34,957 nucleotides of DNA, taken from Bacteroidaceae bacterium (GTDB lineage Bacteria > Bacteroidota > Bacteroidia > Bacteroidales > Bacteroidaceae). A model generated the notes under the pieces. That model was given only the letters and a program-made list of their open reading frames with translations, was not told where the DNA came from and ran no database searches. Of the stretch, positions 171-27,584 are shown one piece after another (the first letter of the stretch is position 1; each line of letters opens with the position of its first letter). The position numbers were made by a program, and so were the translations under genes. The stretch spans positions 1-34,957 of the forward strand of contig JAGCFN010000157.1 of assembly GCA_017650085.1 (NCBI GenBank), given 5' to 3'.

Positions 171-258
171 CAATTGCAAACGTGGCATTATACGTTCCCA
201 ATCGTAACACTATACAATTGCAAACGTCACACTATATGTTTGCCAATGTCACACTATA
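171..258 (+). repeat. 22-nt tandem repeat array A (4 units)
   Basis: There are four consecutive 22-nt units at 171-192, 193-214, 215-236 and 237-258. Each contains a version of GCAAACGTCACACTATA; the third unit is the cleanest and the second most degenerate. The array sits between the rRNA terminator and the acyltransferase gene. Units abut directly with no unique spacers, so this is not a CRISPR array. The remaining 259-399 stretch shows only a promoter-like -7 box. Confidence 0.88.
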
Positions 259-367
259 TGTTTGATGTCTTCACTGGGGGTGTTCGCTAACGGCTTATGG
301 CAGGTTTGTTGAGTAAGCCTCGTGTAACTTTTCTGTTGTTGCGTGTGGTTTTTTGATAAATAATTTG

Positions 368-375
368 TAAATTTG
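368..375 (+). promoter_or_regulatory. Candidate -7 promoter box for acyltransferase gene
   Basis: TAAATTTG matches the Bacteroidota -7 consensus TAnnTTTG. No good TTTG box lies at the expected 19-21 nt upstream, so this is a partial promoter call. If used, transcription would start near 382, which rules out the upstream TTG at 373 as the start codon. Confidence 0.45.
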
Positions 376-399
376 CACTTTGAAGTTTCGCATATAACG

Positions 400-2412
400 A
401 TGGAGATGCTTTCAAGAACTAACACTCAAGCACTGAAAGGTGTTGCAATCATTGCGATTGTCGTGTTCCATATATTGTGGAGGTTCGACATTTCTCCGCT
501 CCTCAATTTGTGGGGCGCTCCTTTCGTGACAGTTTTTCTGGTTCTGAGCGGTTACGGATTGGAGGAGTCTTTCCGCCGAAACGGGCTTGATAGCTTTTGG
601 CTGAAGCGATTGACGAAGGTTGTCCTGCCTTTCATCTTCTTCGTTTGTGCCTATAATTATCTGTTCCCGTTCTTTCCTTTGGGGGATAAATTCCCTGCCG
701 AAGAGGCGATGCATAGATGCTTGGATGAGTTGATTTATAGTGGGCCGAAGTTCTGGTTCGTGTTTTTCATCTTGAAGTGCTATGCTGTATACTGGATTGG
801 GACACGCTTCCTGAGTGGCCGATTACGACTTCTTTTCTTCTTCGTCTGTGCTTTTATATGCTTGAATTTGCGGACTTCCTGTGGCCATCTCGAGGCTGAA
901 CAATCATTCAGTTTCCTTACAGGTGTTCTCCTTTCTATGTACAAGGATAGGGTGGAAGCCCTTTCGTACAAAGAGGTTGGAAGATGGACTCTTCTGCTTT
1001 TGTTTGTTGCAGCTGCTTTTTTCTGTCTGAAAGCTATTCCGCAATTGCATGAATTGAAGGGCACAGTCGCGTATAATTATTTGCTATGTCCTTTCCGGCT
1101 TTCTCTCGGACTGGCTTACATTCCTCTGTTTTCAATGCTTCGTCCAGGCAGGAGTGGCTTTGTGAAGTTGGCAGGAAACTACAGTTTCGAGATTTACATT
1201 GCACACATGCCTTTTATAGGTTTGATAACAGACGTCAGGAGTATTGCGACCTTCCTCGCATGCTCTGCCTTGAGCCTTGCTATCCTGTTGATATACAGAC
1301 GTTTCGTTGAAGGCAAACTGACTATTGCGGAGGCGTTATTCATCGTTATCAATGTGCTTTTTGTTGCGAAGTATTCGGCAAGAGTTTCTGAAACGGCAAG
1401 CTTATGTGCCACACTTTTAGCCATAGTCTTTTACTATGTCCTGCTGCGCTTGGTGTTACCTTATATATATATATACAAAAGAGTCGCAATTTGTGTCTGT
1501 TTGATGGGTTTTGTTGGGATGATTGTCTTGCAGTACTGTATTGACCCCTATTCTGTTCAGGTTGACCGATGGTCTGCTTTGCACTTCCCAATACAGAACC
1601 TTCTTGATGGCATCTATCCTTATACTGCAAGCACACATTTGGGTGGAAATGCGTCGCCCTTCCCAATCTGGCAATTGCTTCATATTCCTTTCTATCTTTT
1701 GGGCAATGTGGGACTCTCGTTTTTTGCTGCCGTAACATTGTTTATATGGAGTTGTTGGAAGGTGCAAGGAAGAGATAAGATTCTCATTGTCAGTATGTTG
1801 TTGTGCTCTTCTGTGGCGGTTTGGTACGAAGTGCTTGTCAGAAGTGACCTCATCACTAACATGTTGTTGGTGGCATCAATCTTCAATCTATTTTCTCGAA
1901 ATCTGAGTCAGCAATGGATAGAGAGGCATCAATGGTGGATAGCCTGTTTGGTGGGCTTGCTGGCAAGCACCAGAGTGATTGTACTTATTCCCATTACAAT
2001 ATTATTGCTGCCATATTTCGTCAAGATGAATTGGCGCAATCAATTAGGCGTTTCCTTATTGGCGATAACTGTTTTTGCATTGACATTTGTTCCTTTTGCA
2101 ATATGGGATTGGCAGGAGTTTTACTATTTCCAAAACAATCCTTGGAGACTGCAAACCAGTCAGGGCAACCTGTCTGATTTCCTTCTCTTTGTGCCTCTTG
2201 CCGTCTTCCTGGCAATGACTCACAAAGGGATTGCATTTCGGTACTGCCGAAATTCTGCCTTGATGCTTGTGGCATTTGTGGTTGTCACGTTTGTCCACAA
2301 CATGTATCTCAGCGAAAACTTTGACCTTTTTTCGTCCGCTTACGACATTACCTATTTTTCGACAGCCCTACCTTTTTGCATGCTTGGAATTGTGGAGGAA
2401 GATGATATATGA
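400..2412 (+). CDS. Membrane acyltransferase (family 3) fused to a second polytopic membrane region
   Basis: This encodes about 670 residues and is rich in membrane helices throughout. The first about 310 residues resemble the acyltransferase-3 family of integral membrane O-acyltransferases: an N-terminal helix with 'LKGVAIIAIVVFH' (His in the usual catalytic position), a following 'FLVLSGYGL' segment, and 'YSFEIYIAHMPF' near the end of that domain. The second half (from about residue 320) is another set of helices with a periplasmic-loop motif 'DGIYPYTASTHLGGNASPFP'. This resembles GT-C/GT87-type polyprenol-phosphate glycosyltransferases, but the match is weak and inferred. The start at ATG 400 is preferred over the in-frame TTG at 373 because a -7 box covers the latter; ATG 406 is also possible. 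It stands alone, ahead of the surface polysaccharide genes, and probably modifies or builds a surface glycan. Substrate unknown. Confidence 0.75.
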   Translation: MEMLSRTNTQALKGVAIIAIVVFHILWRFDISPLLNLWGAPFVTVFLVLSGYGLEESFRRNGLDSFWLKRLTKVVLPFIFFVCAYNYLFPFFPLGDKFPAEEAMHRCLDELIYSGPKFWFVFFILKCYAVYWIGTRFLSGRLRLLFFFVCAFICLNLRTSCGHLEAEQSFSFLTGVLLSMYKDRVEALSYKEVGRWTLLLLFVAAAFFCLKAIPQLHELKGTVAYNYLLCPFRLSLGLAYIPLFSMLRPGRSGFVKLAGNYSFEIYIAHMPFIGLITDVRSIATFLACSALSLAILLIYRRFVEGKLTIAEALFIVINVLFVAKYSARVSETASLCATLLAIVFYYVLLRLVLPYIYIYKRVAICVCLMGFVGMIVLQYCIDPYSVQVDRWSALHFPIQNLLDGIYPYTASTHLGGNASPFPIWQLLHIPFYLLGNVGLSFFAAVTLFIWSCWKVQGRDKILIVSMLLCSSVAVWYEVLVRSDLITNMLLVASIFNLFSRNLSQQWIERHQWWIACLVGLLASTRVIVLIPITILLLPYFVKMNWRNQLGVSLLAITVFALTFVPFAIWDWQEFYYFQNNPWRLQTSQGNLSDFLLFVPLAVFLAMTHKGIAFRYCRNSALMLVAFVVVTFVHNMYLSENFDLFSSAYDITYFSTALPFCMLGIVEEDDI

Positions 2413-2462
2413 CAAGAAATGCAGCCAAGTTGAATATTTTGGGCTTGTAGAACAATAAAATT

Positions 2463-2494
2463 TTTGTTAAATCCGTTATATTATCGTACCTTTG
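2463..2494 (+). promoter_or_regulatory. Promoter of the GT2-wzi-lipoprotein-wecA group
   Basis: TTTG (2463-2466) and TACCTTTG (2487-2494) are separated by 20 nt, an excellent fit to the Bacteroidota sigma-factor pattern. Transcription would start near 2501, leaving about a 70-nt leader before the GT2 start at 2573. Confidence 0.8.
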
Positions 2495-2502
2495 TACGAT
2501 AA
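2481..2502. promoter_or_regulatory. Perfect 9-bp inverted repeat over the -7 box
   Basis: TTATCGTAC and GTACGATAA are perfect inverted copies flanking CTTT, and the -7 box lies inside the palindrome. This is the geometry of an operator that would occlude the promoter. As RNA it could only partly form, because the start site falls near its right edge. No regulator gene is adjacent. Confidence 0.6.
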
Positions 2503-2572
2503 TTGATTCTAACAAAGACAAGAAGCCGAGGTGTGTGGGCACCTTAAAGCCCAGACATTTCGCGTTTGAAGA

Positions 2573-3436
2573 ATGATAACTGCATCGATAGTAACATATA
2601 ATAATAACCTGCTTGACTTGGAAGGCATACTGCGAAGTCTGCTTATTTCGCCTGTCCAGAAAGTCTGGATTATAGACCATAGCGATACTTTCACTCGCTT
2701 GGAAGGCGAACTTCAAGAGTATAAACGCAGGGATGACGAATACTTGAAACATGAAGGCAGAGGCTTTCAGCTGGAGTATATAAAGGAGGTAAACAAAGGT
2801 TATGGTTCCGGTCATAACATTGCTTTGCATAAGGCAATGGACGAAGGTAGCCAGTATCATCTTGTTGTCAACCCGGATGTATGGTTTGGAGCAGAAGTGA
2901 TTCCTGCTCTTTGGCGACTGATGGAAGAGGATGAGACTATTGCTCAGGTGATGCCTAAAGTGCTCTTCCTGAACGGTTCAGTACAGCGTCTCGCCAAACT
3001 TCTTCCAACCCCGATGGATCTCTTTAGCAGATTCTTCTTGCCGGCAAAACTGATAAGCAAGCGAAATGACCGTTTCGAGTTGAGACATTCCGGCTATGAC
3101 AAGGAGATGAATGTACCGTTCCTGTCAGGATGTTTTATGTTCTTTAGAGTAAATGCACTGAAGAGCGAGGGCATCTTTGACGAACGTTTCTTCATGTATA
3201 TGGAGGACGTGGATATTACACGCCGCCTTCATGCGAAATACAAGACCCTGTTCTACCCCTCTGTCAGCATATATCACAGGTTCTCTCGCCTGTCTTATCA
3301 TAATTGGCAACTTTCGCTAGCGCACATGATCAGCGTAGTGAAATACTTCAACAAATGGGGCTGGATATACGATAGCGGCAGAAGACGTTTCAACAAACGA
3401 TTGCTCAAAACATTGAAAACGAATAGCGAAGAATGA
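2573..3436 (+). CDS. Glycosyltransferase family 2 (WbbL/rhamnosyltransferase-like)
   Basis: This 287-residue cytosolic GT-A enzyme should move a sugar from a nucleotide donor to a lipid-linked glycan. Visible landmarks are the N-terminal beta strand 'ASIVTYNN', 'NKGYGSGHNIAL' (74-85), the metal-binding DxD equivalent 'NPDV' (100-103), 'FLSGCFMFFR' (183-192), and the acceptor-side acid 'MEDVDITRRL' (210-219). These are all typical of WbbL-like GT2 proteins; the donor sugar cannot be read from sequence. Its stop overlaps the Wzi-like start by 4 nt (ATGA), implying translational coupling. It is the first gene of the group driven by the promoter at 2463-2494. Confidence 0.9.
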   Translation: MITASIVTYNNNLLDLEGILRSLLISPVQKVWIIDHSDTFTRLEGELQEYKRRDDEYLKHEGRGFQLEYIKEVNKGYGSGHNIALHKAMDEGSQYHLVVNPDVWFGAEVIPALWRLMEEDETIAQVMPKVLFLNGSVQRLAKLLPTPMDLFSRFFLPAKLISKRNDRFELRHSGYDKEMNVPFLSGCFMFFRVNALKSEGIFDERFFMYMEDVDITRRLHAKYKTLFYPSVSIYHRFSRLSYHNWQLSLAHMISVVKYFNKWGWIYDSGRRRFNKRLLKTLKTNSEE

Positions 3437-4944
3437 GAAATAGCAATACCATAATTGTCATTTTGTGCCTGATGCTCATGCCTCTCATGGCTTTGGCACA
3501 GACCGAACGACTGGGCGAAGACATACAGTATGGCTTCAGTCTGCGTGGCACAAGCGGTGGAGGAGACAATGCACCATTCTGGTTTACTAATAACAGATAT
3601 GGCCTGGGTCCTGTCGACAACCATAGTGTTCTGGCTCGTGCCTACATCAAACGTGATGCAGAAGCCGATTCGCTCCGTTTTTGGCGCATAGGTTATGGTG
3701 CAGATATGGCTGCAGGCTATGGCAATGAAAGCGAGTTTTGCATTCAACAATTCTATTTGGATGTGCAATGGAAGATGCTTCGCCTTTCTTTTGGACAAAA
3801 GGAGAGATCGTCAGAACTAAAGAACCCAGAACTGACGACAGGTGGCATGACGCTAGGCATAAACGCTCGCCCTTTGCCTCAAGTTAGATTGGAGTTGCCA
3901 GAGTTCTGGACTGTTCCTGGAACTAAAGGGTGGTTTGCCGTCAAAGCGCATCTTGCCTATGGTATATATACAGACAATAGATGGCAAAGGAACTGGAATG
4001 ATGGGACTCCCAATATTTATACAAAGAACAGTCTCTACCATTCGAAAGCCCTGCTCATGAAGATAGGCAACGTCAAGAAGTTCCCGCTGACATTGACGTG
4101 GGGACTTGAGATGGCATGTCAATTTGGGGGTAAAGGATACAATGAAATAAGCTATACTGGACAACGACTGACAGATGGTGTCAAACTGGGAGGCAATATC
4201 TTTAAGGCCTTTGTTCCAAGTGGAGGTGACGTAAATGATGATGCTTTCTCGAATGCAGCAGGCAATCACCTTGGCTCATGGCACGTTCGTTTTGATTGGA
4301 CAGGCAAGAACTGGAGTGTAGGAGCATATATGGATCACTTCTTTGAAGACCATAGCCAGATAGGCATGCAGTATGGCTTCTGGAAGGACATGCTTCTTGG
4401 CATTGAGGTTAATCTTCCTGAGAATCGCTATGTGAGCAATATTGTCTACGAACACAATGGCACAAAGAATCAGAGTGGTCCCCTCTATCATGACGCTACG
4501 CCGGAAAATCCTCAACAGATAAGTGCCAGCGATGCTTATTACAACAATCATATCTATGGTGCTTGGCAACATGGAGGTTTTGTCATGGGTAATCCTCTTA
4601 TCATTTCGCCGATGTACAATGGATATCTTGGCATGGAAGGCATGCTGCATAACTATTTCAATCGCCTGAATGCACATCATATAGGCCTCAAAGGTAATCC
4701 AAGCCCTTGGTTGTCATGGAGAGCCATGTACACTTATGAGAAGAACTTCGGCTCTTATGACAAGCCAGTGATGGATCCTCTAAAAGGACATTTCCTGCTT
4801 CTGGAAGCAACCTACAAACCAAAGAAACTGAAAGGCTGGGGCTTTGCCGCAGCATATGGACATAATCATGGAAGCCTGTTAGGAAAAGCTAACAGTGCTA
4901 TGCTGACTGTGTCTTTTGATGGTTGGATACGCAAATACAATTAA
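3433..4944 (+). CDS. wzi: Capsule assembly Wzi family outer-membrane protein
   Basis: This 503-residue protein has a signal peptide (about 1-23, ending 'LMALAQ'). A long run of alternating aromatic/polar strands follows, with family-typical pieces 'GDNAPFWFTNNRYGL' and 'RLSFGQKE', and it closes on an aromatic strand near the C-terminus. In the Wzi family an 18-strand barrel holds capsule or other surface polysaccharide at the outer membrane; Bacteroidota homologues are common and diverged. It overlaps the GT2 gene by 4 nt and is followed by a small lipoprotein, consistent with an export/attachment role for the glycan made by its neighbours. The gene symbol reflects the family, not proven function. 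Confidence 0.85.
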   Translation: MRNSNTIIVILCLMLMPLMALAQTERLGEDIQYGFSLRGTSGGGDNAPFWFTNNRYGLGPVDNHSVLARAYIKRDAEADSLRFWRIGYGADMAAGYGNESEFCIQQFYLDVQWKMLRLSFGQKERSSELKNPELTTGGMTLGINARPLPQVRLELPEFWTVPGTKGWFAVKAHLAYGIYTDNRWQRNWNDGTPNIYTKNSLYHSKALLMKIGNVKKFPLTLTWGLEMACQFGGKGYNEISYTGQRLTDGVKLGGNIFKAFVPSGGDVNDDAFSNAAGNHLGSWHVRFDWTGKNWSVGAYMDHFFEDHSQIGMQYGFWKDMLLGIEVNLPENRYVSNIVYEHNGTKNQSGPLYHDATPENPQQISASDAYYNNHIYGAWQHGGFVMGNPLIISPMYNGYLGMEGMLHNYFNRLNAHHIGLKGNPSPWLSWRAMYTYEKNFGSYDKPVMDPLKGHFLLLEATYKPKKLKGWGFAAAYGHNHGSLLGKANSAMLTVSFDGWIRKYN

Positions 4945-4952
4945 GAAGGAAC

Positions 4953-5384
4953 GTGAAAAAAAGGATTTACATATTATTTATCTTTGTTGCAGCCGTATTT
5001 TTCATGATAAGCTGCGACAAGTGGGACTGCAACGGGGACCTTGATGGAATGTGGCAGTTGACAGAGTGGAGAGATAAGGACAATAATGTTAAGGCAACAA
5101 AGGAAGATATGATATTCTACAGCTTCCAGTTGCAGATGGCCAGTTTCCGCATGAATGGAGATAAGTTCTTCATCCGTACATCTTTGGAAGCAAGCCCTGA
5201 GAAAATACGCATCTTCAACCCGATTGAATATGGAGGAAATGGGCATGATGTGATTAAGCCCATGTCGATGCTTTCAGTTGTGGGTGTGCCTGAAGATGGA
5301 ATCTTTCTGGTTCAGGTATTGACAGGAAGCAAGATGTGCCTGAAGACGAACAGCGATGATGTCCTTGTCTTCAGAAAGTATTGA
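4953..5384 (+). CDS. Small lipoprotein, lipocalin-like domain
   Basis: This encodes about 143 residues. GTG 4953 is chosen as start because AAGAAGGA lies just upstream (4943-4950) and the product then begins 'VKKRIYILFIFVAAVF', a proper lipoprotein signal ending in 'FMISC' (lipidated Cys about residue 21). The upstream in-frame TTG at 4923 lies inside the Wzi-like gene. The mature part opens with 'GDLDGMWQLTEW', the first strand pattern of lipocalin-like small lipoproteins of Bacteroidota. The function is unknown; its position between wzi and the WecA-like gene suggests a part in surface-glycan handling. Confidence 0.78.
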   Translation: MKKRIYILFIFVAAVFFMISCDKWDCNGDLDGMWQLTEWRDKDNNVKATKEDMIFYSFQLQMASFRMNGDKFFIRTSLEASPEKIRIFNPIEYGGNGHDVIKPMSMLSVVGVPEDGIFLVQVLTGSKMCLKTNSDDVLVFRKY

Positions 5385-5408
5385 ATTCGTTAAGCATAGA
5401 CTTAGTTC

Positions 5409-6488
5409 ATGAGTAACACTATATACCCTCTCGCTGCATCATTCTTTTCGGCAATGCTCATAACGGCTATAGGCTTGCCACTCATCATAAAGGCATGTAG
5501 ATACTTCAAATATTTCGACCTTCCTGATGAGAGAAAGTTGCATAGCAAGCCCGTGCCACGACTTGGCGGACTGATTTTTATGCCAGCAGCTGTAGTGGGG
5601 CTCTTTGTGGCATCATGGGTGAATGTCATGATAGGCAACGAGGAGTTTGTGTTTGGTGTGTCAACGATTGCCATGACCTTTGGCGGGTTGACTATTTATC
5701 TGATTGGTTTTATAGATGACCGATATGGAATGAAGGCTGTTCATAAGTTCATTATTCAGACAATAGCAGCTTTCATTTTGCCTTTATGCAATCTCGTTGT
5801 TACGGACCTCAATGGTATTTTTGGACTGCATCAGATCCCATTTTGGATTGGTTATGTTTTGACGGTGATGGCGATACTTACCATCGTGAATGCCATTAAT
5901 TTGATAGATGGCATTGATGGCTTGTCTTCAGGTCTTTGTATCTTGATACTTTTAGCTTATACTGTTTTGTTAAGCAAGAATCCTGCTATTGCATCGTTGG
6001 ATGCTGCAATAGTTGGTTCCTTGATAGTTTTCTGGTTTTTCAATGTCTTTGGCAATGTCGGAGGAATGAAGATATTCATGGGAGATGCAGGAAGCCTCTT
6101 CTTAGGTTATGTCTGTGCTTATATGAGCATAAAGAGTTTGATGCGTCCTATTGCACCAGACGATTGCGGAGAGAAGCAGATGCTTATTTCCATTACATTG
6201 TTGCTCATCCCTGTCCTTGATGTCATTCGTGTGGCTTTGCAGCGACGTATTACGGGACATGGAATCTTTGAACCAGACAAAACCCACATCCATCACATAT
6301 TGATGAATGCTGGTTTGTCAATGCATGCAGCGTTGGTCTGCATATTGTCTTTGTTCCTGCTGATATGTGGCATTAACTATGCCTTGTGGCAGTGTCACTT
6401 CCCCATGCCGTTCATTGTGCTGATGGATATTGCCATCTATGCTCTTGTCTGCGGAGTGGTAATGCTTGTTGGCAAGTCGGACAATTGA
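5409..6488 (+). CDS. wecA: Undecaprenyl-phosphate sugar-1-phosphate transferase (WecA/TagO/MraY superfamily)
   Basis: This 359-residue polytopic membrane enzyme transfers a HexNAc-1-phosphate from UDP-sugar to undecaprenyl phosphate, the first step of many lipid-linked glycans. Motifs in order are 'DLPDERKLHSKPVPRLGG' (37-54), 'FIDDRYG' with the Mg-binding Asp pair (103-104), 'NAINLIDGIDGLSSG' (161-175), 'MGDAGS' (224-229), and the cytosolic HxHH loop 'HIHH' (293-296). Length and order match WecA/Rfe rather than MraY. It lies 24 nt after the lipoprotein gene and is the last gene of the plus-strand group, converging on capD-like with a 23-nt gap. The sugar (GlcNAc or another HexNAc) is not determined. 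Confidence 0.92.
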   Translation: MSNTIYPLAASFFSAMLITAIGLPLIIKACRYFKYFDLPDERKLHSKPVPRLGGLIFMPAAVVGLFVASWVNVMIGNEEFVFGVSTIAMTFGGLTIYLIGFIDDRYGMKAVHKFIIQTIAAFILPLCNLVVTDLNGIFGLHQIPFWIGYVLTVMAILTIVNAINLIDGIDGLSSGLCILILLAYTVLLSKNPAIASLDAAIVGSLIVFWFFNVFGNVGGMKIFMGDAGSLFLGYVCAYMSIKSLMRPIAPDDCGEKQMLISITLLLIPVLDVIRVALQRRITGHGIFEPDKTHIHHILMNAGLSMHAALVCILSLFLLICGINYALWQCHFPMPFIVLMDIAIYALVCGVVMLVGKSDN

Positions 6489-6511
6489 AAATCCTATTGC
6501 GCGGAGAAAGT

Positions 6512-8437: not shown

Positions 8438-8460
8438 GTCTTTTTGTTTATGCAGTTTGG

Positions 8461-8492
8461 CAAAGTTATGCTTTTATTGTCAACTGTGCAAA
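8461..8492 (-). promoter_or_regulatory. Promoter of capD-like gene
   Basis: On the minus strand, TTTG (8489-8492) and TAACTTTG (8461-8468) are separated by 20 nt, matching the Bacteroidota promoter pattern. Transcription would start near 8454, giving a leader under 20 nt before ATG 8437. The rest of the 8438-8575 gap holds nothing else recognised. Confidence 0.78.
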
Positions 8493-8575
8493 TAAAGAGA
8501 TGCAAAAATGTCAAAATCTTCCGCTTTTGCTAACTTGTTCTTACAAAAAGAGATGTTTCGAGGCATTGGAAAGGG

Positions 8576-9880: not shown

Positions 9881-9897
9881 GAGGAAATGTCGTGTGT

Positions 9898-9985
9898 GGA
9901 AACATCACGTGTGACGATTGCAAACGTCACACTAGTAAATCGCAAACGTCACACTAGTAAATTGCGAACGTCACACGTGATGTTT
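9898..9985 (+). repeat. 22-nt tandem repeat array B (4 units)
   Basis: Units begin at 9898, 9920, 9942 and 9964, exactly 22 nt apart. The second and third are nearly identical (GCAAACGTCACACTAGTAAA); the first is degenerate and the fourth slightly changed. The array fills most of the gap between the prs stop and the start of the PAP2 gene, both on the minus strand. Confidence 0.9.
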
Positions 9986-10005
9986 TACATCGTGGCACAG
10001 GTCGC

Positions 10006-10944: not shown

Positions 10945-11011
10945 TGTTATATTTAAGATTTACCAGTTCCTTTCTGTTGTTTCTCGCCTGGGTGGTGATG
11001 GGCTTGATGTT

Positions 11012-11620: not shown

Positions 11621-11650
11621 TCCGTTTCTCTTGGTCTTTTTTTCTGTGTG

Positions 11651-11658
11651 CAAAGATA
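11651..11658 (-). promoter_or_regulatory. Candidate -7 box for ThiE-like/prs
   Basis: Read on the minus strand the site is TATCTTTG, a strong -7 match. No clear TTTG lies 19-21 nt upstream. It is divergent from, and less than 80 bp from, the GH43 promoter at 11699-11729. Confidence 0.6.
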
Positions 11659-14805: not shown

Positions 14806-14871
14806 GAAAACACACCACAGTTAAATTGCAAACGTAACACTATACGATTGCCAACTTGACTGCAAGCATTT
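14806..14871 (+). repeat. 22-nt tandem repeat array C (3 units, degenerate)
   Basis: Units begin at 14806, 14828 and 14850. The middle one (GCAAACGTAACACTATACGA) is clear; the outer two are degenerate but keep the 22-nt phase. The array occupies most of the 81-nt gap between two co-directional genes. Confidence 0.65.
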
Positions 14872-19547: not shown

Positions 19548-19551
19548 CTTT

Positions 19552-19639
19552 GCAAACATCACGTGTTAAAATGCCCAACATCACGTGTTAAAATGGCAAA
19601 CATCACGTGCCACATTTGCAAACGACACGAGTGTTGCTG
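19552..19639 (+). repeat. 22-nt tandem repeat array D (4 units)
   Basis: Units begin at 19552, 19574, 19596 and 19618. Their core is a distinct variant, GCAAACATCACGTGTTAAAA, containing the palindrome CACGTG. The array fills nearly the whole 93-nt gap between the convergent stop codons of the GH38 gene (19547) and the NagB-like gene (19641). No conventional terminator is visible there. Confidence 0.9.
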
Positions 19640-19640
19640 T

Positions 19641-20366
19641 TTATAGAGAAGAAGCGGCAGCGGCATCGAGCAGTACCTCACAATGTGGATGGCGTTGAAG
19701 GATGGAGGCAGGAATATCGGTGGTGACAGGGCCACGCAGTACTTGGCTCACAATCTTTGCTTTGGCAGTTCCCTTGACAACCAGTATGATACGACGAGTT
19801 TGCATAATGTCCGACAGTCCCAACGTGACACCTCCAAGGGAATGTTCGGCAGACATGCTCATCTCCCTGCGTATGCGAGTTTCCAAAGCATGGTCCATGC
19901 TGCCCGTTCCAACTGTACTCTCAAAAGGAGCTCCTGGCTGATTGAATCCAAGATGCCCGTTCTCGCCTAAGCCTAAGATGAGCAAGTCAATGCCTCCTCT
20001 TTGTTGTAGTTTCTCCATGAAGTGTTGGCAATCAGTTTCCAAGTCGTCGCTCTGTGTGGGTAGCATCAGGAAATGATCTTCATCGGTTCCCAGCCCATCG
20101 ATGATCTCGGACTTGAGCATCGTGTAGCACGCCCCAGAATAAGAGCGAGGGACTCCTGTCACTTCATCCACGCCGAAGAATGTGACACGACTGGCATCAA
20201 AAGGCTGGTCGCGATGAATCTCTACTACCAGCCGATGCATGTTGCCTGTAGTACGGCCCGTTGAAAGTCCTATCACACTTTCCGGCTTTTTCCTGATCTG
20301 CTGAACAATTCTCTCAGCACCAGCAAGGTCAAAAGCCTGTTCGTTTCTTTCTATGTGTATTGTCAT
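19641..20366 (-). CDS. nagB: Glucosamine/galactosamine-6-phosphate isomerase (NagB-like)
   Basis: This encodes about 241 residues. ATG 20366 is chosen over the ORF's upstream start at 20399 because it follows the GH9 stop by 25 nt and begins at the conserved 'MTIHIERNEQAF'. Family landmarks are 'GLSTGRTTG' (33-41, phosphate loop), 'FFGVDEVTGVP' (64-74, Asp of the active site) and 'LGLGENGHLGFNQPG' (131-145). In Escherichia coli NagB the last motif is DGHIAFNEP; here the Glu is Gln, an unusual change, while Asn at the first position is common in other NagB/AgaI proteins. It could act on galactosamine-6-phosphate instead. It is the last gene of the minus-strand glycan operon and would feed released amino sugars into glycolysis. 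Confidence 0.8.
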   Translation of the reverse strand: MTIHIERNEQAFDLAGAERIVQQIRKKPESVIGLSTGRTTGNMHRLVVEIHRDQPFDASRVTFFGVDEVTGVPRSYSGACYTMLKSEIIDGLGTDEDHFLMLPTQSDDLETDCQHFMEKLQQRGGIDLLILGLGENGHLGFNQPGAPFESTVGTGSMDHALETRIRREMSMSAEHSLGGVTLGLSDIMQTRRIILVVKGTAKAKIVSQVLRGPVTTDIPASILQRHPHCEVLLDAAAASSL

Positions 20367-20391
20367 GACTTCTATTTTTGGGAGGGGGAGT

Positions 20392-22797
20392 CTATTCATA
20401 TTCAGCGATGAGCGACAGGAACTTCCCTGCCGAGGTCACCCATACCTCTTTGTAGCAAGCGTTGTTCGTTTGGGGCCAATAAGGCACGTCCTCGTTGCCG
20501 AAAGAGCGTATGCCTACAGGTATTTCGCCCGTTATCTCGCCTGAAGAGAAGCTGTCCAGAGACGGGTAGCGATGTCCTTCACCATAGATGAGTGACTGGC
20601 AGAAAGGATTCTTACCTACAGTCCAGTAGAGTTGTTCCAGTCCTATTTGGCAGAGAGTTTCGTCCTTCAGATAATGTCCGCACATTGCAGCACCTTTTCC
20701 TGTGGAAAGGATGATGGCCTCGTTGCCATTGAAGATGCTGAAACTCATGGGGAAACGGTGCAGGTAGTGCGTCTCGTCAATCTTCTCTCCACAGTGCAAT
20801 TGGCGGTCGAAGAGTTGTTGGGCATTGCTTGGCGAGAAGATGTGCAGGGAATGGAAACCTTCAGAGTCTTCATACTCTTTAGCCTGCCATATTCCTGAGG
20901 ATATCATGCCGTAAGGTTCAGTATAAGGCATTAAGCGTTTCAGATAGTCGGCATATCGGTGGATAGCATCATTCCATTGCGGAGCATCTGGATGCGAAGG
21001 CTGGGACTTGCACAATGCAATAAGTGCTTGAGGAAAGAGTTGGTCGCGCGACTGATGAACGAAATGGACAGGGGCGCGTCGTGTCGTATCGCGATAAAAA
21101 TAGCCCGAAAAGCCCTCTTTTTCTTGGCATTTCAAGACATAGCAAATGCTTGAAGTTGCCAATTCGGCATAAGTTGAATCGCCTGTCAAGAGATAGAGTA
21201 GAGTGGCCGACCAACTTCTGGCAGCTTGGAACAGAGAGGGAGAGGTGTTGTAAGTGTGCTCCATGATGTGTGGGAAATGGTCGTAACCATCACGCTGGAA
21301 CTTCTTCTCTGCAAAATGGAAATCCTCTGTCGCTGCTTTGGCAAGGTTGTCGTGGAGAGAGGAGGAAGGCAGGGCCTTTGCTGCAAAGGCTTCGTAAGCG
21401 GCATAGAGATAATTGTCGAAGGCATTGTCTTGCTTGCGAACGGTATGGATGTCATCATAAGTCCCGGTTTGGGAGTCCGTCCAATGAAGCAGACCCAAAC
21501 TGCTGGCTCGGAATCCGTCGCCAAAGCGGCAGCGCAGTACGAAGCGAAAACCCCATTCTGCTTCCTCGAGCAATCGTTTGGCTAAAAGGGGATGGGAGTC
21601 TTTGTTATGGAGATAAGCCTCGAGCAACGAATAAGCCACATCGGCTGTCTGCAAGGTTTGTTGCGAGAGGTCGCCAGCGTCGTGCCAGCCTCCACCATAA
21701 CAAATCTCCTTACCTGCATGGTCACAGAAAACATCTTGATGGCAGACTCCGTGAATGCCGGGAACCTCGTAGCCGCAACGTTGGCAAAAGATGAAATTGA
21801 GCAACCGCCATTGTGTGTCGAGGAAGGCATCATCCGAGATAAGGAAAGGCTCCGTCACGGTTTCCCCAAGTTTGAGTCGATAATGCCCTGACTTATTGAA
21901 ACTGGAGAAGTCCAGCACTTTGAAGTTTCCCAAAGAGGTACGTTTGGGTTCTGCTTTGCCAGTAAAACATACCTTTCCGCTTTTCTCATCAATTAGCGAG
22001 AAGGTTCCTCCTAAACTGTTGTCCGCAACAGCCGTCTTGCGTCCCTTTGCCAGATATCCTGTAGAAGAATAGGCGATGCATCCTGGTTGGATGTCCCATC
22101 CAATCTCTTTCGGAGTGTTCTCCACTTGCTCTAAACGCAGGTTACGCAGTACGTAGGAGATGCTGTCGCACAATGCTCCGTTCTTCCCCTTCAGGTCTGT
22201 GTATAATGTGAGACTCATTACGGAATCACGCTCCAAACCGCTTATGTCGTATACAACGGTGTTCCACTTGTTGTTGGTCAGGTTGATGAGATGGGCTCCC
22301 AGCATATTGGGGTGAGCATTCTGCAGGACCGCGTTCAGATTCATAACCATAACACCTCGGCAAATGGGCTTTACCTCCATGACTATCCTGGTGAATTTGC
22401 GCAGATCACGCCCGTTCATGTTCAGCGACAAACTGGCCCTGCCGAAGGTGGCATAGTCAGGGTCATTGTTGGGCCCTTTAGCTCTTTCTCCAGTATGGAC
22501 GGGAACAATCAGGCACAACCCGCTGTCTGCGATGCATTCCATCTTCCCAAAGCCTTCGTGCCGCCATCTATAAATGGTGTTGTCGAGAGGAATCGCTTCG
22601 GAATGCAGCACTGGTTGTCTGAGTTGGCTTGTCTCCATCGAACGGCTGTCATCTAATGGCAAAGGGATGTGCAGCATGTTGCTCGAACGGATTTCCTTGT
22701 CCAAACTGCCGCTCAAGGAATGGCGTGGCGAACAACTTGTCAAGTAGAGTTGTACCCCTACAAGGATCAATGCTGAGATGAGAAGAATGCGTTTCAC
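20392..22797 (-). CDS. GH9 family glycosidase lipoprotein
   Basis: This 801-residue protein has a lipoprotein signal ending 'LYLTSC' (Cys22). Order: a beta-rich, carbohydrate-binding-like N-terminal region (about 70-225), an Ig-like domain typical of GH9 enzymes (about 235-320), and an (alpha/alpha)6 barrel. 'GGGWHDAGD' (368-376) carries the two Asp of the GH9 catalytic base site. The C-terminal acid region includes 'NNACYKEVW' near residue 780. Most GH9 proteins are beta-1,4-glucanases, but the family also includes exo-beta-glucosaminidases. Sitting 25 nt upstream of a NagB-like gene, the latter is a real possibility. It lies 43 nt after the GH43 gene in the same operon. Confidence 0.9.
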   Translation of the reverse strand: MKRILLISALILVGVQLYLTSCSPRHSLSGSLDKEIRSSNMLHIPLPLDDSRSMETSQLRQPVLHSEAIPLDNTIYRWRHEGFGKMECIADSGLCLIVPVHTGERAKGPNNDPDYATFGRASLSLNMNGRDLRKFTRIVMEVKPICRGVMVMNLNAVLQNAHPNMLGAHLINLTNNKWNTVVYDISGLERDSVMSLTLYTDLKGKNGALCDSISYVLRNLRLEQVENTPKEIGWDIQPGCIAYSSTGYLAKGRKTAVADNSLGGTFSLIDEKSGKVCFTGKAEPKRTSLGNFKVLDFSSFNKSGHYRLKLGETVTEPFLISDDAFLDTQWRLLNFIFCQRCGYEVPGIHGVCHQDVFCDHAGKEICYGGGWHDAGDLSQQTLQTADVAYSLLEAYLHNKDSHPLLAKRLLEEAEWGFRFVLRCRFGDGFRASSLGLLHWTDSQTGTYDDIHTVRKQDNAFDNYLYAAYEAFAAKALPSSSLHDNLAKAATEDFHFAEKKFQRDGYDHFPHIMEHTYNTSPSLFQAARSWSATLLYLLTGDSTYAELATSSICYVLKCQEKEGFSGYFYRDTTRRAPVHFVHQSRDQLFPQALIALCKSQPSHPDAPQWNDAIHRYADYLKRLMPYTEPYGMISSGIWQAKEYEDSEGFHSLHIFSPSNAQQLFDRQLHCGEKIDETHYLHRFPMSFSIFNGNEAIILSTGKGAAMCGHYLKDETLCQIGLEQLYWTVGKNPFCQSLIYGEGHRYPSLDSFSSGEITGEIPVGIRSFGNEDVPYWPQTNNACYKEVWVTSAGKFLSLIAEYE

Positions 22798-22840
22798 TCG
22801 TGAAAATGATGGTGCGAAAATGCTAAATCAGAAACTTCGT

Positions 22841-24103
22841 TCATTTGTGGAGTTCCATCAAGCGTTGGTACTCGTTTTCTGTGATAGGAATGACGGTGCC
22901 GTGCCGAGGTGTGAAAGCACCCTCGGTAGCGGTGTTCTTGCGGAACTTGAACTGGTAGAGGTCTTGCGAAGAGCAGAACTGATAGTGCCCGTTCACATAG
23001 CAGTCGTACATGAGAATCCAGTCGTCACTGTTGATGAGGCGAAAGACGCCTGCTCCCTCCACGGCTTCCCTGGTTTGCTGCAAAGTACCTGACGGTGCTC
23101 CCCATTGACTGCCTTCCTTTCCGAGGGGAGCAGTGAGGCTGGTGGTTGTGACTTCGCAGATTCCGCCAGCTCCTTCGTTCTTGTAGAAAGCGTGATAGAG
23201 CCCGTCGTTTTCATTGAAGACGATGTTCATGTCGATGGTGGCATCGCCCCGGTCGTAGAAATAGGTGGGTTCACTTTCCAAGTCGGTGAAATCCTTGTTG
23301 GCGTAGGCATAGAATACCTTGTCGTAGGGCACTTTGCCATCGTTTGTCAGGATTGAGAAGTAGATGAGATACTTCTTGGCAACGGGGTCGTAGATGGTTT
23401 CCGGAGCCCATACGCGAGTTACGTTGGCAAGATAGGTGCCGGCATAGCGTGTGGGGAAATGTACGGTACTTGTCTGCCAATTGATGAGGTCTTCGGAGCG
23501 CATGAGAACCATGCCCCGATTGCTGCTCCAACCAAGCGCACAACGCATATCTGTCGCAACCATATAGAAGCGTCCGTCTTCTCCACGAAGGATGTGCGGG
23601 TCGCGCAGTCCTCCCATGACGGTAATGCCTTTTGCGCTGACAACGGGTTTGCCTTCGTTGACTACTGTGTAGTTGTAACCGTCATCGGAAACGGCATAGT
23701 AGATGTTCTCGTCGCTGTTGCTGGGGAAGAAGGTGAAGAGATAGTGCGAATAGGGACTGTCCTTCTTGTGGACAAAGACTTTGAAGGTCTTTTTGGCCGT
23801 CGATTCTCCCTTTGTCAAGGTTGCGGTGAGGGTGACGCGTTTGCGGGTTCTTTTGGGAGTGCCGACCACTTTCCCCTCGTTCGAGAGCAGTTTGGTATTG
23901 CCGGACTGCCAAGTAATGGTGGAGCCGTAAGAGCCTTTGGTGGGGAGTTCGACGCCTTCATAGAGGTTGTTGATGCTGCTTGGCAGCGTCAGCTCGGCAA
24001 GGTCCTTATAGAGGGCATCCTTGTTGCCGTCTTCTGCGAGTAAGGGCATGGCCATGCAGACAATCAGGGCATATCCGAGCACCAGTTGATGTGTGCGTTT
24101 CAT
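22841..24103 (-). CDS. GH43 family glycosidase with N-terminal Ig-like domain
   Basis: This 420-residue protein has a signal peptide 1-23. Residues about 35-112 form a bacterial Ig-like domain ('GSTITWQSGNTKLLSNEGKV'). A five-bladed propeller follows, with GH43 features: 'GGLRDPHIL' (catalytic base Asp168), 'DATIDMNIV' (central Asp) and 'EGAGVFRL' (acid Glu, about residue 352). Likely arabinofuranosidase or xylosidase/galactosidase-type activity on side chains; the specificity cannot be assigned. It lies 12 nt after the flavodoxin-like gene and 43 nt before GH9, within the minus-strand operon. Confidence 0.88.
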   Translation of the reverse strand: MKRTHQLVLGYALIVCMAMPLLAEDGNKDALYKDLAELTLPSSINNLYEGVELPTKGSYGSTITWQSGNTKLLSNEGKVVGTPKRTRKRVTLTATLTKGESTAKKTFKVFVHKKDSPYSHYLFTFFPSNSDENIYYAVSDDGYNYTVVNEGKPVVSAKGITVMGGLRDPHILRGEDGRFYMVATDMRCALGWSSNRGMVLMRSEDLINWQTSTVHFPTRYAGTYLANVTRVWAPETIYDPVAKKYLIYFSILTNDGKVPYDKVFYAYANKDFTDLESEPTYFYDRGDATIDMNIVFNENDGLYHAFYKNEGAGGICEVTTTSLTAPLGKEGSQWGAPSGTLQQTREAVEGAGVFRLINSDDWILMYDCYVNGHYQFCSSQDLYQFKFRKNTATEGAFTPRHGTVIPITENEYQRLMELHK

Positions 24104-24115
24104 GGTCTTGCTGTT

Positions 24116-24916
24116 TTATTCTCTTACAACTTCTGTAAACTCGGGCTTCGCACCTTCTTCTTTGTTGACAGTCACGAAGATGGTCGAGGTGCTCTCTTGT
24201 CCGTCGAAGCCGATGCTTTTTGCCGTGAACTTGTAGTCCGTGCTCTCTTCCGTCTCGCGCTTGCCTACAGTAACAGGTGTACCGAGTGGGAACTGATAGT
24301 TTGAACAAGCTGCATCGAAGACGAGGCTATCCTCTTGAGTCAAAGGAACCTGCTCGCCATAGTCGGGCAAGGGCGCGATGTTCCCCTTCTTGTAGCCGTT
24401 CTCAATGAGGAAGCGGTTGAGTTCTTTCGGAGCAGCCCCGATTCTTGCTTGACGCACACCATAACCCTGGCGGATGTCGGCTTTCGGCAGGGCCTCTTTG
24501 AGGTTTTTCCACGAAGCGCCACCTCCGCTGCCGAAGGTGCAGAAGGGCACAACGGTTTTGCCTGCAAAGTCGTTCTCCTTGACCAGAGTGGCGACGGGCA
24601 TGGCATAAGTGCCGAACCAGATGGGATAGCCGATGAAGATGACGTCGTAGTCAGCCAGGTTAGCCTGAATGGGATTGAGCTCTGGCAGCTCGCCGCTTTC
24701 CATTTCCACTCGACAGCGGTCTATTGTTGCTTGGAAGTCACCGTCGTAGGGATTCACAGCTTCGATGCGTTCTATGTCGGCATCGAGTTGTTTCTGCAGT
24801 TCCTCGGCTACGGCTTGCGTCGTGCCAGTCTGGGAGTAATAGAGCACCAACACCTTTTGCTTGGTGCAACTTGTCAGGATAGAAGCCATCATGGCTAACA
24901 ACATGAACTTTTTCAT
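24116..24916 (-). CDS. Flavodoxin-like lipoprotein with C-terminal extension
   Basis: This encodes about 266 residues. ATG 24916 is chosen because it begins the lipoprotein signal 'MKKFMLLAMMASILTSC' (Cys17); the longer frame overlaps the upstream TSCPD gene. The flavodoxin fold follows: 'VLVLYYSQTGTTQAVAEEL' (FMN phosphate loop), 'DVIFIGYPIWFGTYAMPV' and 'FCTFGSGGGASW'. About 85 residues are appended after the fold, with a strand-rich pattern of unknown role. A lipid-anchored flavodoxin would act outside the cytoplasm, which is unusual. It lies 14 nt after the TSCPD gene and 12 nt before GH43. Its place in a glycosidase operon is unexplained. Confidence 0.82.
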   Translation of the reverse strand: MKKFMLLAMMASILTSCTKQKVLVLYYSQTGTTQAVAEELQKQLDADIERIEAVNPYDGDFQATIDRCRVEMESGELPELNPIQANLADYDVIFIGYPIWFGTYAMPVATLVKENDFAGKTVVPFCTFGSGGGASWKNLKEALPKADIRQGYGVRQARIGAAPKELNRFLIENGYKKGNIAPLPDYGEQVPLTQEDSLVFDAACSNYQFPLGTPVTVGKRETEESTDYKFTAKSIGFDGQESTSTIFVTVNKEEGAKPEFTEVVRE

Positions 24917-24930
24917 TTTCTTGTGTGTTT

Positions 24931-25185
24931 TTATTGTTTCTTGATTTCTTCCAACGCTCTGCAAAGCTGATCGGGGCAGGAAGTCTGTTTTGTGCCACAA
25001 CGGATGCCGTTGATTTTCTGGATGACATCGTCAACCTTTTGTCCTGTAACGAGTCGGCAGATGCCTTGCAGATTGCCGTTGCATCCGCCCACGAAAAACA
25101 CTTGCTGGATGATGTCGTTGTCATCCACTGTCACATCAATCAGTTGTGAGCAAGTTCCTTGAGTTTGATACTGAATGTGTTTCAT
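24931..25185 (-). CDS. TSCPD domain protein, small Cys-rich
   Basis: This 84-residue protein contains the defining 'TSCPD' sequence at 68-72 and six cysteines (12, 35, 43, 63, 70, 75), including 'FVGGCNGNLQGIC' and 'RCGTKQTSCPDQLC'. This is the standalone small family also found as the C-terminal domain of some class II ribonucleotide reductases. A metal- or redox-linked role is likely, but no function is established. It sits 7 nt downstream of GH92 and directly before the flavodoxin-like gene, so the two may be a redox pair. Confidence 0.88.
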   Translation of the reverse strand: MKHIQYQTQGTCSQLIDVTVDDNDIIQQVFFVGGCNGNLQGICRLVTGQKVDDVIQKINGIRCGTKQTSCPDQLCRALEEIKKQ

Positions 25186-25192
25186 TTTCTTT

Positions 25193-27367
25193 TTATTTTA
25201 CGATTTCTTCGTGTGTGATGTAGTTGCGGTCTTTTGGCAGCGATTCGGGGGTGATGGTGAAGCGGCGGCCGTTCTGCAGGTTGAGTGTGATGCGACGGAA
25301 GCGCGGTTCGCCAAGCATGTAGCGGTCGGAAGATGGGCAGACAGGATAGAAGCCCATCGAGGAGAAGATGAACCACGATGACATCTGCCCCGAGTCGTCG
25401 TTGCCAGAGAGGCCGCCAGGTGTGTCGTTGTATTCTGTGTCGAGGATGTAGTTCACCCATTTTACTGTCTTCTCGCGTTTGCCGATGAAGTCGTAGAGGT
25501 AGGCTATCTGATGGCATGGTTCGTTGCCGTGCCAATACCGCTCCTCTGTAAACATCGAGTCGAGTTTTGCCTCGAACGCTTCTTTCCCCAGCATCTGGGC
25601 GAGGCCCTCCACATTGTGGGGCACAAACCAAGTGTAGTGGCAGACGGCCCCTTCTGTGATGAATGCTTTGCGGCGCACCAGGTCGGTATTGCCTTCGAAG
25701 TGCCCGTCAGCATAGCGTCCGTCGCAATAGCCCGTCTTGGGGTTAATGACATTTCGCCAATTCTCGGAGCGGGCCATCAGCACCTTGTAGTCATCATCCT
25801 TGCCCAGTGCCTTAGCCATCTGAGCCACGGCAAAGTCGTCGAAGGCATACTCCAGGGTTCGCGAGGTCTGCTCCTTCTGGTGGAACGCCTCTCTGACCTC
25901 GTCTTCCAGCGGAATGTAGCCGTACTTCAGGTAGGATTGCAGCGCCCTTCTGCCCATCCCGTTCTTGTAGTCCTCTTCCGAGGCTGGTGTCTCGAAAGCG
26001 TTCTTGCGCATCCCCTCGTAAGCCTTTTCCGCATCGAAGCCGCGAATGCCCTTGATGTAGGCGTCGGCGAGTGCTACAGAGCAATGGTCGCCTATCATGG
26101 CTGCAGTGTAGGAGTTCCAGCTGGGGAAGATGGGCAGCCAGCCTCCCTCTTCGTATTTGGTGACGAGGGATTGCATCATGTCGGCCGAGACATCGGGGTA
26201 GAGTAGGGTGTAGAGCGGATGCACGGCTCGGAAGGTGTCCCACATCGTAAAGTCGCAGTAGTATACGGCCCCCCTCCGCCTCCCCCGAGGGGGAGTGTAA
26301 GAAGCCTTCCCTCGGGAAGGTTTGGATGGGGCCCCATTTGCGAAGCGAGGGTAGCTCCCGTCCGCATCACTCATTTCGTGAGGCATGAACGAAGCGCGAT
26401 AGAGCGCTCCGTAGAACTGGTTGATGCGGGCCGTGTCTGTGTCTTCCACATCGATGGCGTGGAGATGCCTGATCCAAGTTCGGATGAGGTTCTGCTTCAT
26501 CTCTTCGAAGCTGACGCCCTTTGCCTCTGCTCTGTAATTGAGTTCTGCACCCTCGCGACCTGTGAAGGATGTTGCTGCCTTGATGATGATGGGCTTGCCT
26601 GCTCTGCCTTCGAAGGTGAGCCAGGCGCAGTTGCCGTCCTGACCGCACTGGATGGGGTTGTCTTCGTAGGTGAGGAGCAGGTGTCCGCTGAAGCCTGCCC
26701 GCTCGCCCCAGCCCTGATAGATGCGATGGACGGGGTTGTAGCCGTAGATGGTCCTGTGCTGCGGCTCCACCTCGATGTGCCCCTCTTTCTCGTCGCTGTT
26801 CGGCTCCACGACAATGTGGATGGGGCCGTCCTGCTCGGGTGTGATGCGGAGGATGACTGCATGGCTGCTTGCCGTCATTTCCGTCGTCAGATGCTCGTCT
26901 GGGAGCCTCACAGCGTAGTAGTGGGGATGCGACACCTCTTCGGTGTGACTGAAGCGTGTGGCGCGTTCCTTTGCCGACTTGCGGAGCTGGCCGGAGAGGG
27001 TGGCAATGGTGAACGAGCCGTAGTCCTGCGTGCAACTGCCCGAAGTCCAATGACTGCCTCTGAAGCCCTGCAGCATCGTGTCAGTATAATAATAGGGAGA
27101 GAGACATTTCGCCTCGCTCTCGCGCGTCTGGGGCGTCCAGAAGTTCTGTCCGTTAGGCGAGAGTACAGCCGGCATGGTCTGTCCGTGTTCCTCCGAGCCT
27201 TTGCCGAAGAGTCCTGCCGTCTTCGTGTTGGCGGGGGCTGTGCCCACCATCGTGTTGAGTGCGCAGAGCTGGCGGAGATGCTCCCGGTCGTGCCGGCTGA
27301 GTCCTTTTGCCATAATGCCGTAATGGCACAGAAACATCAGAATGGCGGGAAGGAGGAGTCTGTTCAT
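25193..27367 (-). CDS. Secreted GH92 alpha-mannosidase with an in-frame repeat insert
   Basis: This encodes about 724 residues. ATG 27367 starts a good signal peptide ('MNRLLLPAILMFLCHYG'); the 89 in-frame codons upstream run through repeat array E and are not coding. GH92 motifs are 'FTMWDTFRAVHPLYTLL' (about 370-386) and 'SGNDDSGQMSSWFIFSSMGF' (about 650-670), which holds the acidic calcium/base residues. GH92 enzymes are calcium-dependent exo-alpha-mannosidases acting on N-glycans or yeast mannan. Residues about 341-368 are low-complexity Pro/Arg/Gly/Ser sequence encoded by palindromic DNA, just before the WDTF motif; family members are expected to lack this. It heads the six-gene minus-strand operon. 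Confidence 0.92.
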   Translation of the reverse strand: MNRLLLPAILMFLCHYGIMAKGLSRHDREHLRQLCALNTMVGTAPANTKTAGLFGKGSEEHGQTMPAVLSPNGQNFWTPQTRESEAKCLSPYYYTDTMLQGFRGSHWTSGSCTQDYGSFTIATLSGQLRKSAKERATRFSHTEEVSHPHYYAVRLPDEHLTTEMTASSHAVILRITPEQDGPIHIVVEPNSDEKEGHIEVEPQHRTIYGYNPVHRIYQGWGERAGFSGHLLLTYEDNPIQCGQDGNCAWLTFEGRAGKPIIIKAATSFTGREGAELNYRAEAKGVSFEEMKQNLIRTWIRHLHAIDVEDTDTARINQFYGALYRASFMPHEMSDADGSYPRFANGAPSKPSRGKASYTPPRGRRRGAVYYCDFTMWDTFRAVHPLYTLLYPDVSADMMQSLVTKYEEGGWLPIFPSWNSYTAAMIGDHCSVALADAYIKGIRGFDAEKAYEGMRKNAFETPASEEDYKNGMGRRALQSYLKYGYIPLEDEVREAFHQKEQTSRTLEYAFDDFAVAQMAKALGKDDDYKVLMARSENWRNVINPKTGYCDGRYADGHFEGNTDLVRRKAFITEGAVCHYTWFVPHNVEGLAQMLGKEAFEAKLDSMFTEERYWHGNEPCHQIAYLYDFIGKREKTVKWVNYILDTEYNDTPGGLSGNDDSGQMSSWFIFSSMGFYPVCPSSDRYMLGEPRFRRITLNLQNGRRFTITPESLPKDRNYITHEEIVK
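26262..26345. repeat. In-frame palindromic element inside the GH92 gene
   Basis: Three palindromes lie in a row: CTCCCCC-GA-GGGGGAG (26280-26295), CCTTCCC-TC-GGGAAGG (26305-26320) and ATGGGGCCCCAT (26326-26337). They are GC-skewed and encode 'SKPSRGKASYTPPRGRRR', unlike the surrounding enzyme. The reading frame is kept. Sequence around the first palindrome resembles the element at 31741-31815. Confidence 0.8.
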
Positions 27368-27390
27368 TGAAAACTTCACTATTCGTGCCA

Positions 27391-27398
27391 CAAATATA
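27391..27398 (-). promoter_or_regulatory. Proximal candidate -7 box of the GH92 operon
   Basis: Read on the minus strand the site is TATATTTG, matching TAnnTTTG. It lies about 24 nt upstream of the GH92 start. No TTTG box is visible at the ideal distance. Confidence 0.5.
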
Positions 27399-27496
27399 TG
27401 AAAAAGGAATGACATAACCAAGAAAGAGCGTGCTGGCTTGTTGCAAAGAGGGGAAAAGCGAATCATTGTGGCGGAAATGGCATTTAGTGGTAAATT

Positions 27497-27584
27497 AGTT
27501 CTCTCGTGTGACGAATGCGATTGTATAGTGTTACGTTGGCCATCGTAAAGTGTTACGTTTCGCATCGTGATTGTGTCATCCGGA
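27497..27584 (-). repeat. 22-nt tandem repeat array E (reverse orientation, 4 units)
   Basis: Units occupy 27497-27518, 27519-27540, 27541-27562 and a degenerate 27563-27584. Read on the minus strand they carry GCCAACGTAACACTATA and GCGAAACGTAACACTTTA-type cores, with the same 22-nt period as arrays A-D. The array lies between two candidate -7 boxes upstream of the GH92 operon. Confidence 0.82.

Follow-up and report, generated by a model that had tools for sequence, protein, structure and literature searches.

Dispersed intergenic arrays with a constant 22-nt period in a Bacteroidaceae genus: possible helically phased DNA-binding arrays

The nearest described counterpart to the repeats considered here is BrickBuilt, a miniature inverted-repeat transposable element (MITE) of Porphyromonas gingivalis with a 23-nt tandem unit (Klein et al. 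2015, PMC4596501). Our subject is a family of arrays of a 22-nt unit, five of which lie between genes on one contig of an uncultured gut Bacteroidaceae bacterium (JAGCFN010000157.1 of assembly GCA_017650085.1); the window is this whole contig of 34,957 nt, and the genome that it belongs to, G000, comprises 2.64 Mb and is 79% complete. Both are intergenic Bacteroidales repeats built of short, imperfect tandem units without spacers, and the variation of unit number between strains at a conserved locus, a BrickBuilt feature, has its parallel in the 22-nt arrays. BrickBuilt, for its part, has 19 copies in one strain, with a leader of up to 285 nt and a tail of up to 318 nt; its ends carry IS5-like terminal inverted repeats, some copies have target duplications, and indels within an element reach 6%. 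In contrast, the 22-nt family runs to hundreds of arrays, no such ends were found in it (terminal inverted repeats not having been tested statistically), and its spacing is almost always 22. Searches of an open-access library, judged by title and abstract opening, yielded no description of the 22-nt family and nothing nearer than BrickBuilt (PMC4596501).

Repetitive extragenic palindromes (REPs), bacterial interspersed mosaic elements (BIMEs) and REP doublet-forming hairpins (REPINs) are likewise short repeats between genes, present in many copies and grouped at regular spacings (PMC2817692), and against the REP/BIME figure of more than 100 intergenic copies G000 has 268 sites. Unlike REPs, which alternate in orientation, the 22-bp units are contiguous and in tandem, and their letters are replaced between related species while the positions stay. 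A gene of the RAYT type (REP-associated tyrosine transposase, Y1_Tnp) was matched neither in G000, where its absence is uncertain at 79% completeness, nor in a second genome, G008, and assignment to the RAYT/REP system is not supported on this account; Y1_Tnp matches occur in 40 of 101 genomes of the genus, including the family-rich G027, G035 and G094. Eukaryotic centromere satellites expand in layers, with a young homogeneous centre and older diverged edges. The 22-nt arrays have the same young centre and old edges, in arrays of mostly 2-8 units at many bacterial loci. Plasmid iterons and partition sites are direct repeats of about 20-22 bp, or two helical turns, bound side by side by an initiator or partition protein; the 22-nt units are likewise direct repeats of about two turns, dispersed over the genome whereas iterons and partition sites form single loci. 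Because REP/BIME elements are alike in number and place and the RAYT test failed, with BrickBuilt the nearest described element, we group the arrays with the dispersed intergenic repeats, among which they are unusual in the constancy of their geometry.

The initial annotation had taken the five arrays for members of a dispersed family, and a genome scan bears this out: the pattern GCAAACGTMACACTATAC, with up to 3 mismatches, finds the 268 sites of G000, against 2 for the reversed control pattern. An excess over shuffled gaps, set beforehand as the test, was also found, in that 50 dinucleotide shuffles of the G000 gaps gave 0 arrays of at least three in-phase units against 56 strand-wise counts in the 124 real gaps, with a profile trained on the same arrays. 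By profile, 47 arrays were called in 399 kb of G000 (20 stretches plus the window). The stretches of G000, G008 and G125 (the metagenome-assembled genome, or MAG, RUG12460) were picked from contigs with known sites, which biases array densities upward (65 sites in the G000 stretches versus 41 at the genome mean), and those of G125 and G000 share content and are not independent of each other. Scaled by site count, the genome-wide totals come to about 194 arrays in G000, 127 in G008 and 263 in G125, and scaled by length to 310, 383 and 408, placing the G000 total at roughly 190-310. A double-unit pattern was found in the MAGs RUG12460, RGIG10220 (G126, from yak rumen) and RGIG7250 (G128, from water buffalo cecum, whose places are the same as those of G008), and on one contig of Tb.RUG.125, among the matches listed (80 of 93 stretches).

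The spacing of the units is strict. Across six genomes, adjacent profile matches stand 22 nt apart in 1045 pairs, 44 in 52 and 66 in 12, against only 7 off-phase adjacent matches within 70 nt with the profile scored at any position; strands are scored separately in this count, and near-palindromic arrays enter it twice. The exact phase claimed for the window, degenerate units included, was recovered at all five places, each of which holds units on a 22-nt grid, and the units are contiguous, with no unique spacers, in agreement with the view that they are not clustered regularly interspaced short palindromic repeats (CRISPRs), for which no cas-gene search was made. The grid persists through heavy sequence change, neighbouring units differing at a mean of 7.4 (G000) and 7.8 (G008) of 22 positions, which amounts to 2617 substitutions over 343 adjacent pairs in the two genomes. 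In 28 ordinary gaps, G000 and G125 differ by 453 substitutions and by 16 indels of lengths that 22 does not divide, which makes one off-phase indel to every 28 substitutions; four ordinary G126 gaps show 173 substitutions versus 2 off-phase indels. At these rates the units' substitutions should have brought tens of off-phase indels, and the scarcity of off-phase spacings is our main argument that the 22-nt spacing matters. This scarcity also lends indirect support to the earlier suggestion that 22 bp, as two helical turns, would place a bound protein on one face of the DNA.

Length changes likewise proceed mostly in steps of 22. When each array is measured together with 22 nt of either flank, the net length difference between orthologues is divisible by 22 in 12 of 15 pairs for G000/G125, 6 of 7 for G000/G126 and 4 of 4 for G125/G126; the corresponding figures for array-free gaps are 17 of 32 (G125) and 4 of 4 (G126).

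The positions of the arrays are inherited between close species. Orthologous gaps whose flanks average 86-93% identity hold an array in 51 of 52 directed comparisons (reciprocal pairs being counted in both directions), and those at 69-84% in 15 of 21, one of the six absences proving on reading to hold an array after all. Where identity is down to about 78%, arrays in one and the same gap can have different unit centres, such as ACACTATA in G000 and ACACGTTA in G008. The centre of the array turns over while its edges persist: between orthologues in G000, G125 and G126, mismatches per 22 run from flank to centre as 1.7, 2.4, 4.2, 4.9, 5.6, 5.9 and 5.0, the last value standing for the last four units, in an edge-anchored comparison of 62 pairs, of which 41 and 4 reach the innermost steps; in places the gain or loss of units shifts its register. 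Within one genome, edge units of different arrays differ at 8.8-9.2 positions and central units at 5.1-7.8. The centre, being most alike within a genome and least alike between orthologues, thus appears to be overwritten, leaving the edges as an older layer.

The contention that units within an array resemble each other more than units elsewhere, through local homogenisation, stands in five of six genomes, with similarity dropping along the array with separation and some arrays having changed as a block between close species; the within- versus between-array values are 7.69 and 8.88 mismatches per 22 in G000. G008 departs from it (8.66 versus 8.22), and homogenisation is not the whole story there: near-identical neighbours make up only 1 of its 193 adjacent pairs, against 13 of 168 in G000, 19 of 143 in G125 and 15 of 124 in G126, and units of the same index match across arrays, at 6.5, 7.0 and 8.0 mismatches in arrays of 4, 5 and 6 units versus 8.0, 8.5 and 9.1 for units of different index. 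In this index-specific consensus of G008 the central unit is the most conserved (3.5-4.2 mismatches). Five anchor positions of the unit change less between orthologues than the others, in 25 of 445 cases versus 143 of 1513 for edge units and 18 of 275 versus 121 of 935 for inner units, a difference that is suggestive only, detection itself favouring the anchors. Separately, at L063:3388-3833 of G000 and its RUG12460 orthologue (L151) there is a tRNA-like sequence, recognized by eye with no tRNA search made, beside which RUG12460 has extra tandem copies of a part of it, with the middle altered, that G000 lacks; and a stretch of about 1 kb (L177, L096) has an array on one side in RGIG10220 and on the other side in RGIG7250.

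The distribution of the family is narrow. A 44-nt profile, R1, finds matches at E 0.01 in at least 33 of 139 genomes of the genus, G000 included, 16 of which have at least 23 matches; outside the genus, 1 of 294 genomes drawn from the order gave a single weak match. These R1 counts are lower bounds, a capped number of candidates having been scored in each genome and under stricter filters. Within these 139 and 294 genomes, the GCAAAC family, as defined by its profile, is confined to part of one genus. The period has a wider range: in 37 genus genomes outside those 16, of which three (G009, G013, G110) have 3-5 R1 matches and in which some sampled stretches lay around chance pattern or transposase matches, 1.02 Mb holds 37 gap windows of period 22, whereas the median over lags 12 to 60 is 2 (with 15 at lag 44 and, next, 12 at lag 14). 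In 236 kb of other families, 1 such window was found where 10 were expected at the genus rate. The windows outside the family merge into 35 arrays for a test of symmetry and 33 for one of similarity, and their letters are unrelated to those of the GCAAAC family. Species-specific dispersed families outside the R1 clade were considered and rejected on the overall comparison given below, suggestive cases being G016 (17/22) and G002 (16/22), with a weak third, G011, whose 15/22 equals the best between-species match. Hence, with other families as the outside sample for the period, it is the genus that seems to be marked by the 22-nt geometry, and a part of the genus by the GCAAAC family. Tb.RUG.125 (G127/G131), an otherwise family-poor genome, carries G000-type units on contigs C128 and C252; its 7 sites lie on three contigs, mainly two, possibly through MAG contamination.

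We tentatively favor, at a confidence that stays short of even, the interpretation that the arrays are multi-site, helically phased DNA-binding arrays for a putative protein, overwritten from the centre. Each 22-bp unit, at two helical turns, would be one site for a putative and probably dimeric DNA-binding protein, copies of which would line up on one face of the DNA and could touch; selection for these protein contacts may keep the spacing, the central unit would be the strongest site, and conversion or slippage could overwrite the centre on top of the binding. Binding is favored because helical phasing predicts just such a 22-bp grid, maintained while the sequence changes heavily, and neither a transposon nor an RNA element needs one. 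Also counted in its favor are the length steps of 22, the period-22 excess in the 37 other genomes of the genus, the slower change of the anchor positions and, in G008, the index-specific consensus, the self-complementarity described below and the rarity of fresh local duplicates. Nucleoid organisation, a transcription roadblock or regulation are possible effects of such binding, and the gene-end bias of G000 and G008 described below, which does not extend to the other genomes, hints at a role downstream of genes.

Several observations count against this interpretation. The binding protein is postulated, with no candidate identified. Over whole array-bearing gaps with their flanks, off-phase indels come to 6 per 269 substitutions (G125) and 5 per 330 (G126), which is no fewer than in ordinary gaps. 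A base-level separation of array from flank fails because the interiors do not align between orthologues, which makes the base-level indel count inside arrays unusable: 26 pairs show 29 off-size gaps within their arrays, and many of these combine to totals of 0, 22 or 44. The profile could under-detect off-phase units, and the interior changes fast between species of 93% identity. No significant dyad symmetry was obtained for G000 (3 of 37 arrays), for the five other genomes with the family (2 of 23) or for arrays beyond the family (5 of 35), and the gene-end bias fails outside G000 and G008. Finally, outside the family, two arrays resemble each other no more closely within a species than between species (permutation p 0.23), and in those genomes this speaks for duplication in steps of 22 nt more than for a binding motif.

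The main rival is that the arrays are a functionless dispersed satellite, produced by a genus-specific 22-nt duplication step together with ectopic gene conversion, which would propagate and even out one sequence family in one clade. We regard this as a real possibility, if on balance doubtful; the double counting of strands and the indels of whole array gaps weigh down the binding interpretation and raise this one. Conversion predicts that orthologous mismatches rise from flank to centre (1.7 to 5.9) and that paralogous centres are the most alike, as found; the length changes in mostly multiples of 22, the near-identical neighbours in G000, G125 and G126, which look like recent local duplication, the period-22 repeats of unrelated sequence in other members of the genus, and their scarcity in other families, all fit as well. 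Left unexplained are the rarity of off-phase spacing among heavily substituted units, and the index-specific consensus and lack of fresh duplicates in G008. An extension of the binding interpretation, which we consider less probable than not by a wide measure, is a genus-wide DNA-organising system in which the geometry, with a site every 22 bp, several sites to an intergenic region and hundreds of such regions, is conserved and the letters drift with a putative fast-evolving DNA-binding protein, giving clade dialects at inherited positions.

The arrays are unlikely to be a BIME/REPIN-like or MITE-like mobile element that depends on a transposase supplied in trans. Such an element would account for the high copy number and mostly intergenic location, for end units that differ from the inner ones and by eye are roughly inverted between the two ends, and for arrays gained or lost between diverged species; it sits poorly with the near-constant presence at orthologous places at 86-93% identity and with the lack of a Y1_Tnp match in G000 (79% complete) or G008, other transposase families not having been searched. 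Six of the seven flagged absences were read by eye, the seventh (G126/G012) falling outside this reading, and showed no target-site duplication and no clean empty site, one of the six having an array on both sides, and clean mobile insertion was rejected on these readings; short duplications could be lost at such divergence.

Gene context was judged against a simple longest-ORF calling, in which the open reading frames (ORFs) that contain array midpoints are mechanical calls of at least 100 aa. The arrays are mostly intergenic, with midpoints in called gaps for 36 of 47 in G000 and 49 of 55 in G008 and the remainder inside mechanical ORFs, and they occur, as first described, in co-directional, convergent and divergent contexts. 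Among gaps of at least 80 nt, those with an array number 12/20 convergent, 20/62 co-directional and 3/27 divergent in G000, and 13/17, 28/57 and 6/21 in G008. The same classes give 9/19, 17/38 and 5/16 in G125, a weaker bias, and 8/53, 18/176 and 5/54 outside the family, neither significant, and 1/8, 13/32 and 7/14 in five other family-bearing genomes, where the trend is reversed and not significant; a general preference for gene 3' ends, significant in G000 and G008 only, was thus discarded. In co-directional gaps the array starts at a median of 16-21 nt past the upstream stop codon, and its orientation relative to genes shows no clear preference (13 same and 8 opposite; 15 same and 14 opposite). 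Array RNA folds mildly better than shuffles, at mean z -1.95 (37 arrays) and -2.24 (50 arrays). Terminator-like hairpins are about equally common at gene ends with and without an array (12/37 versus 32/111 in G000, 11/47 versus 25/98 in G008), and a terminator function was rejected for lack of enrichment beside arrays. In G008, units are self-complementary beyond a column-permuted control in 24 of 49 arrays; this being the only genome that the column-permutation test supports, universal palindromy was dropped, as was within-unit pairing by covariation of positions 8 and 15, the coupling of which is strong both within a unit and between adjacent units and is at least partly a product of array subtypes. 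Hairpins of 3' untranslated regions, serving as terminators or transcript stabilisers, are the least probable reading, and quite improbable: the start just past the stop codon, the convergent over divergent excess in G000 and G008 and the somewhat better folding speak for them, whereas the equal hairpin counts, the lack of a clear orientation preference, the failure or reversal of the convergent bias in the other samples and the fact that an RNA function does not need hairpins at a fixed 22-nt spacing speak against them.

In the window, arrays A, B, D and E are detected both by Tandem Repeats Finder, at period 22, and by the profile scan, and Rfam gives no match in the window at its gathering threshold. 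Array A (171..263, plus strand) has four in-phase units of CACTATA type; the phase first assigned to it, 171-258, was off, the family phase being 176-263. Array B (9898..9985, plus strand) consists of four units with the core CACACTAGT and CACGTG-type edge units, between two minus-strand genes for a PAP2-domain protein and a ribose-phosphate pyrophosphokinase-like protein; its orthologue in RUG12460 is longer by one unit (22 nt). Array C (14806..14871, plus strand), between a GH43 (glycoside hydrolase family 43) gene and the next plus-strand gene, has a single full unit with degenerate in-phase units on either side and received no call in the profile scan of the window; it belongs to the family because its RUG12460 orthologue has two additional full units. 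Array D (19552..19639, no strand assigned) has four ATCACGTG-type units that are nearly self-complementary, and the profile scan retained it on the minus strand; it occupies the gap between convergent GH38 and glucosamine-isomerase-like genes, and its RUG12460 orthologue is equal in length. Array E (27497..27584, minus strand), with three units and one weak edge unit, lies upstream of a GH92 gene and overlaps the mechanical GTG start of that ORF. The impression that arrays fill their gaps almost exactly holds for D and nearly for C; B fills about 70% of its gap, and A and E do not fit the description.

Other repeats of the window differ in period. A 24-nt tandem repeat of 3.1 copies at 29049-29122 has a unit unlike that of the 22-nt family. 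Hexamer repeats (TTAACC, TAACGA, AACCCT) lie at 27966-28014 and 28163-28207, over or beside mechanical ORFs, and heptamer repeats (ATAGTTC, TTCATAG, TCTAAAC, TTTTAAT, ATTTACC, ATTGAAG) at 30490-30552, 31545-31594 and 33492-33577. In the genus sample, too, lags 14 and 21 are elevated, as they would be if 7-nt repeats were common.

Should selection maintain the spacing, some two hundred loci in each genome would report on one DNA-binding protein and would also show shifts of its specificity between species. Should it not, the genus would have a mutational process unusual for its fixed step of 22 nt, and its compact bacterial genomes would show concerted evolution of a satellite-like kind. In both cases, with their inherited positions, replaced letters and constant geometry, they make a comparative system.

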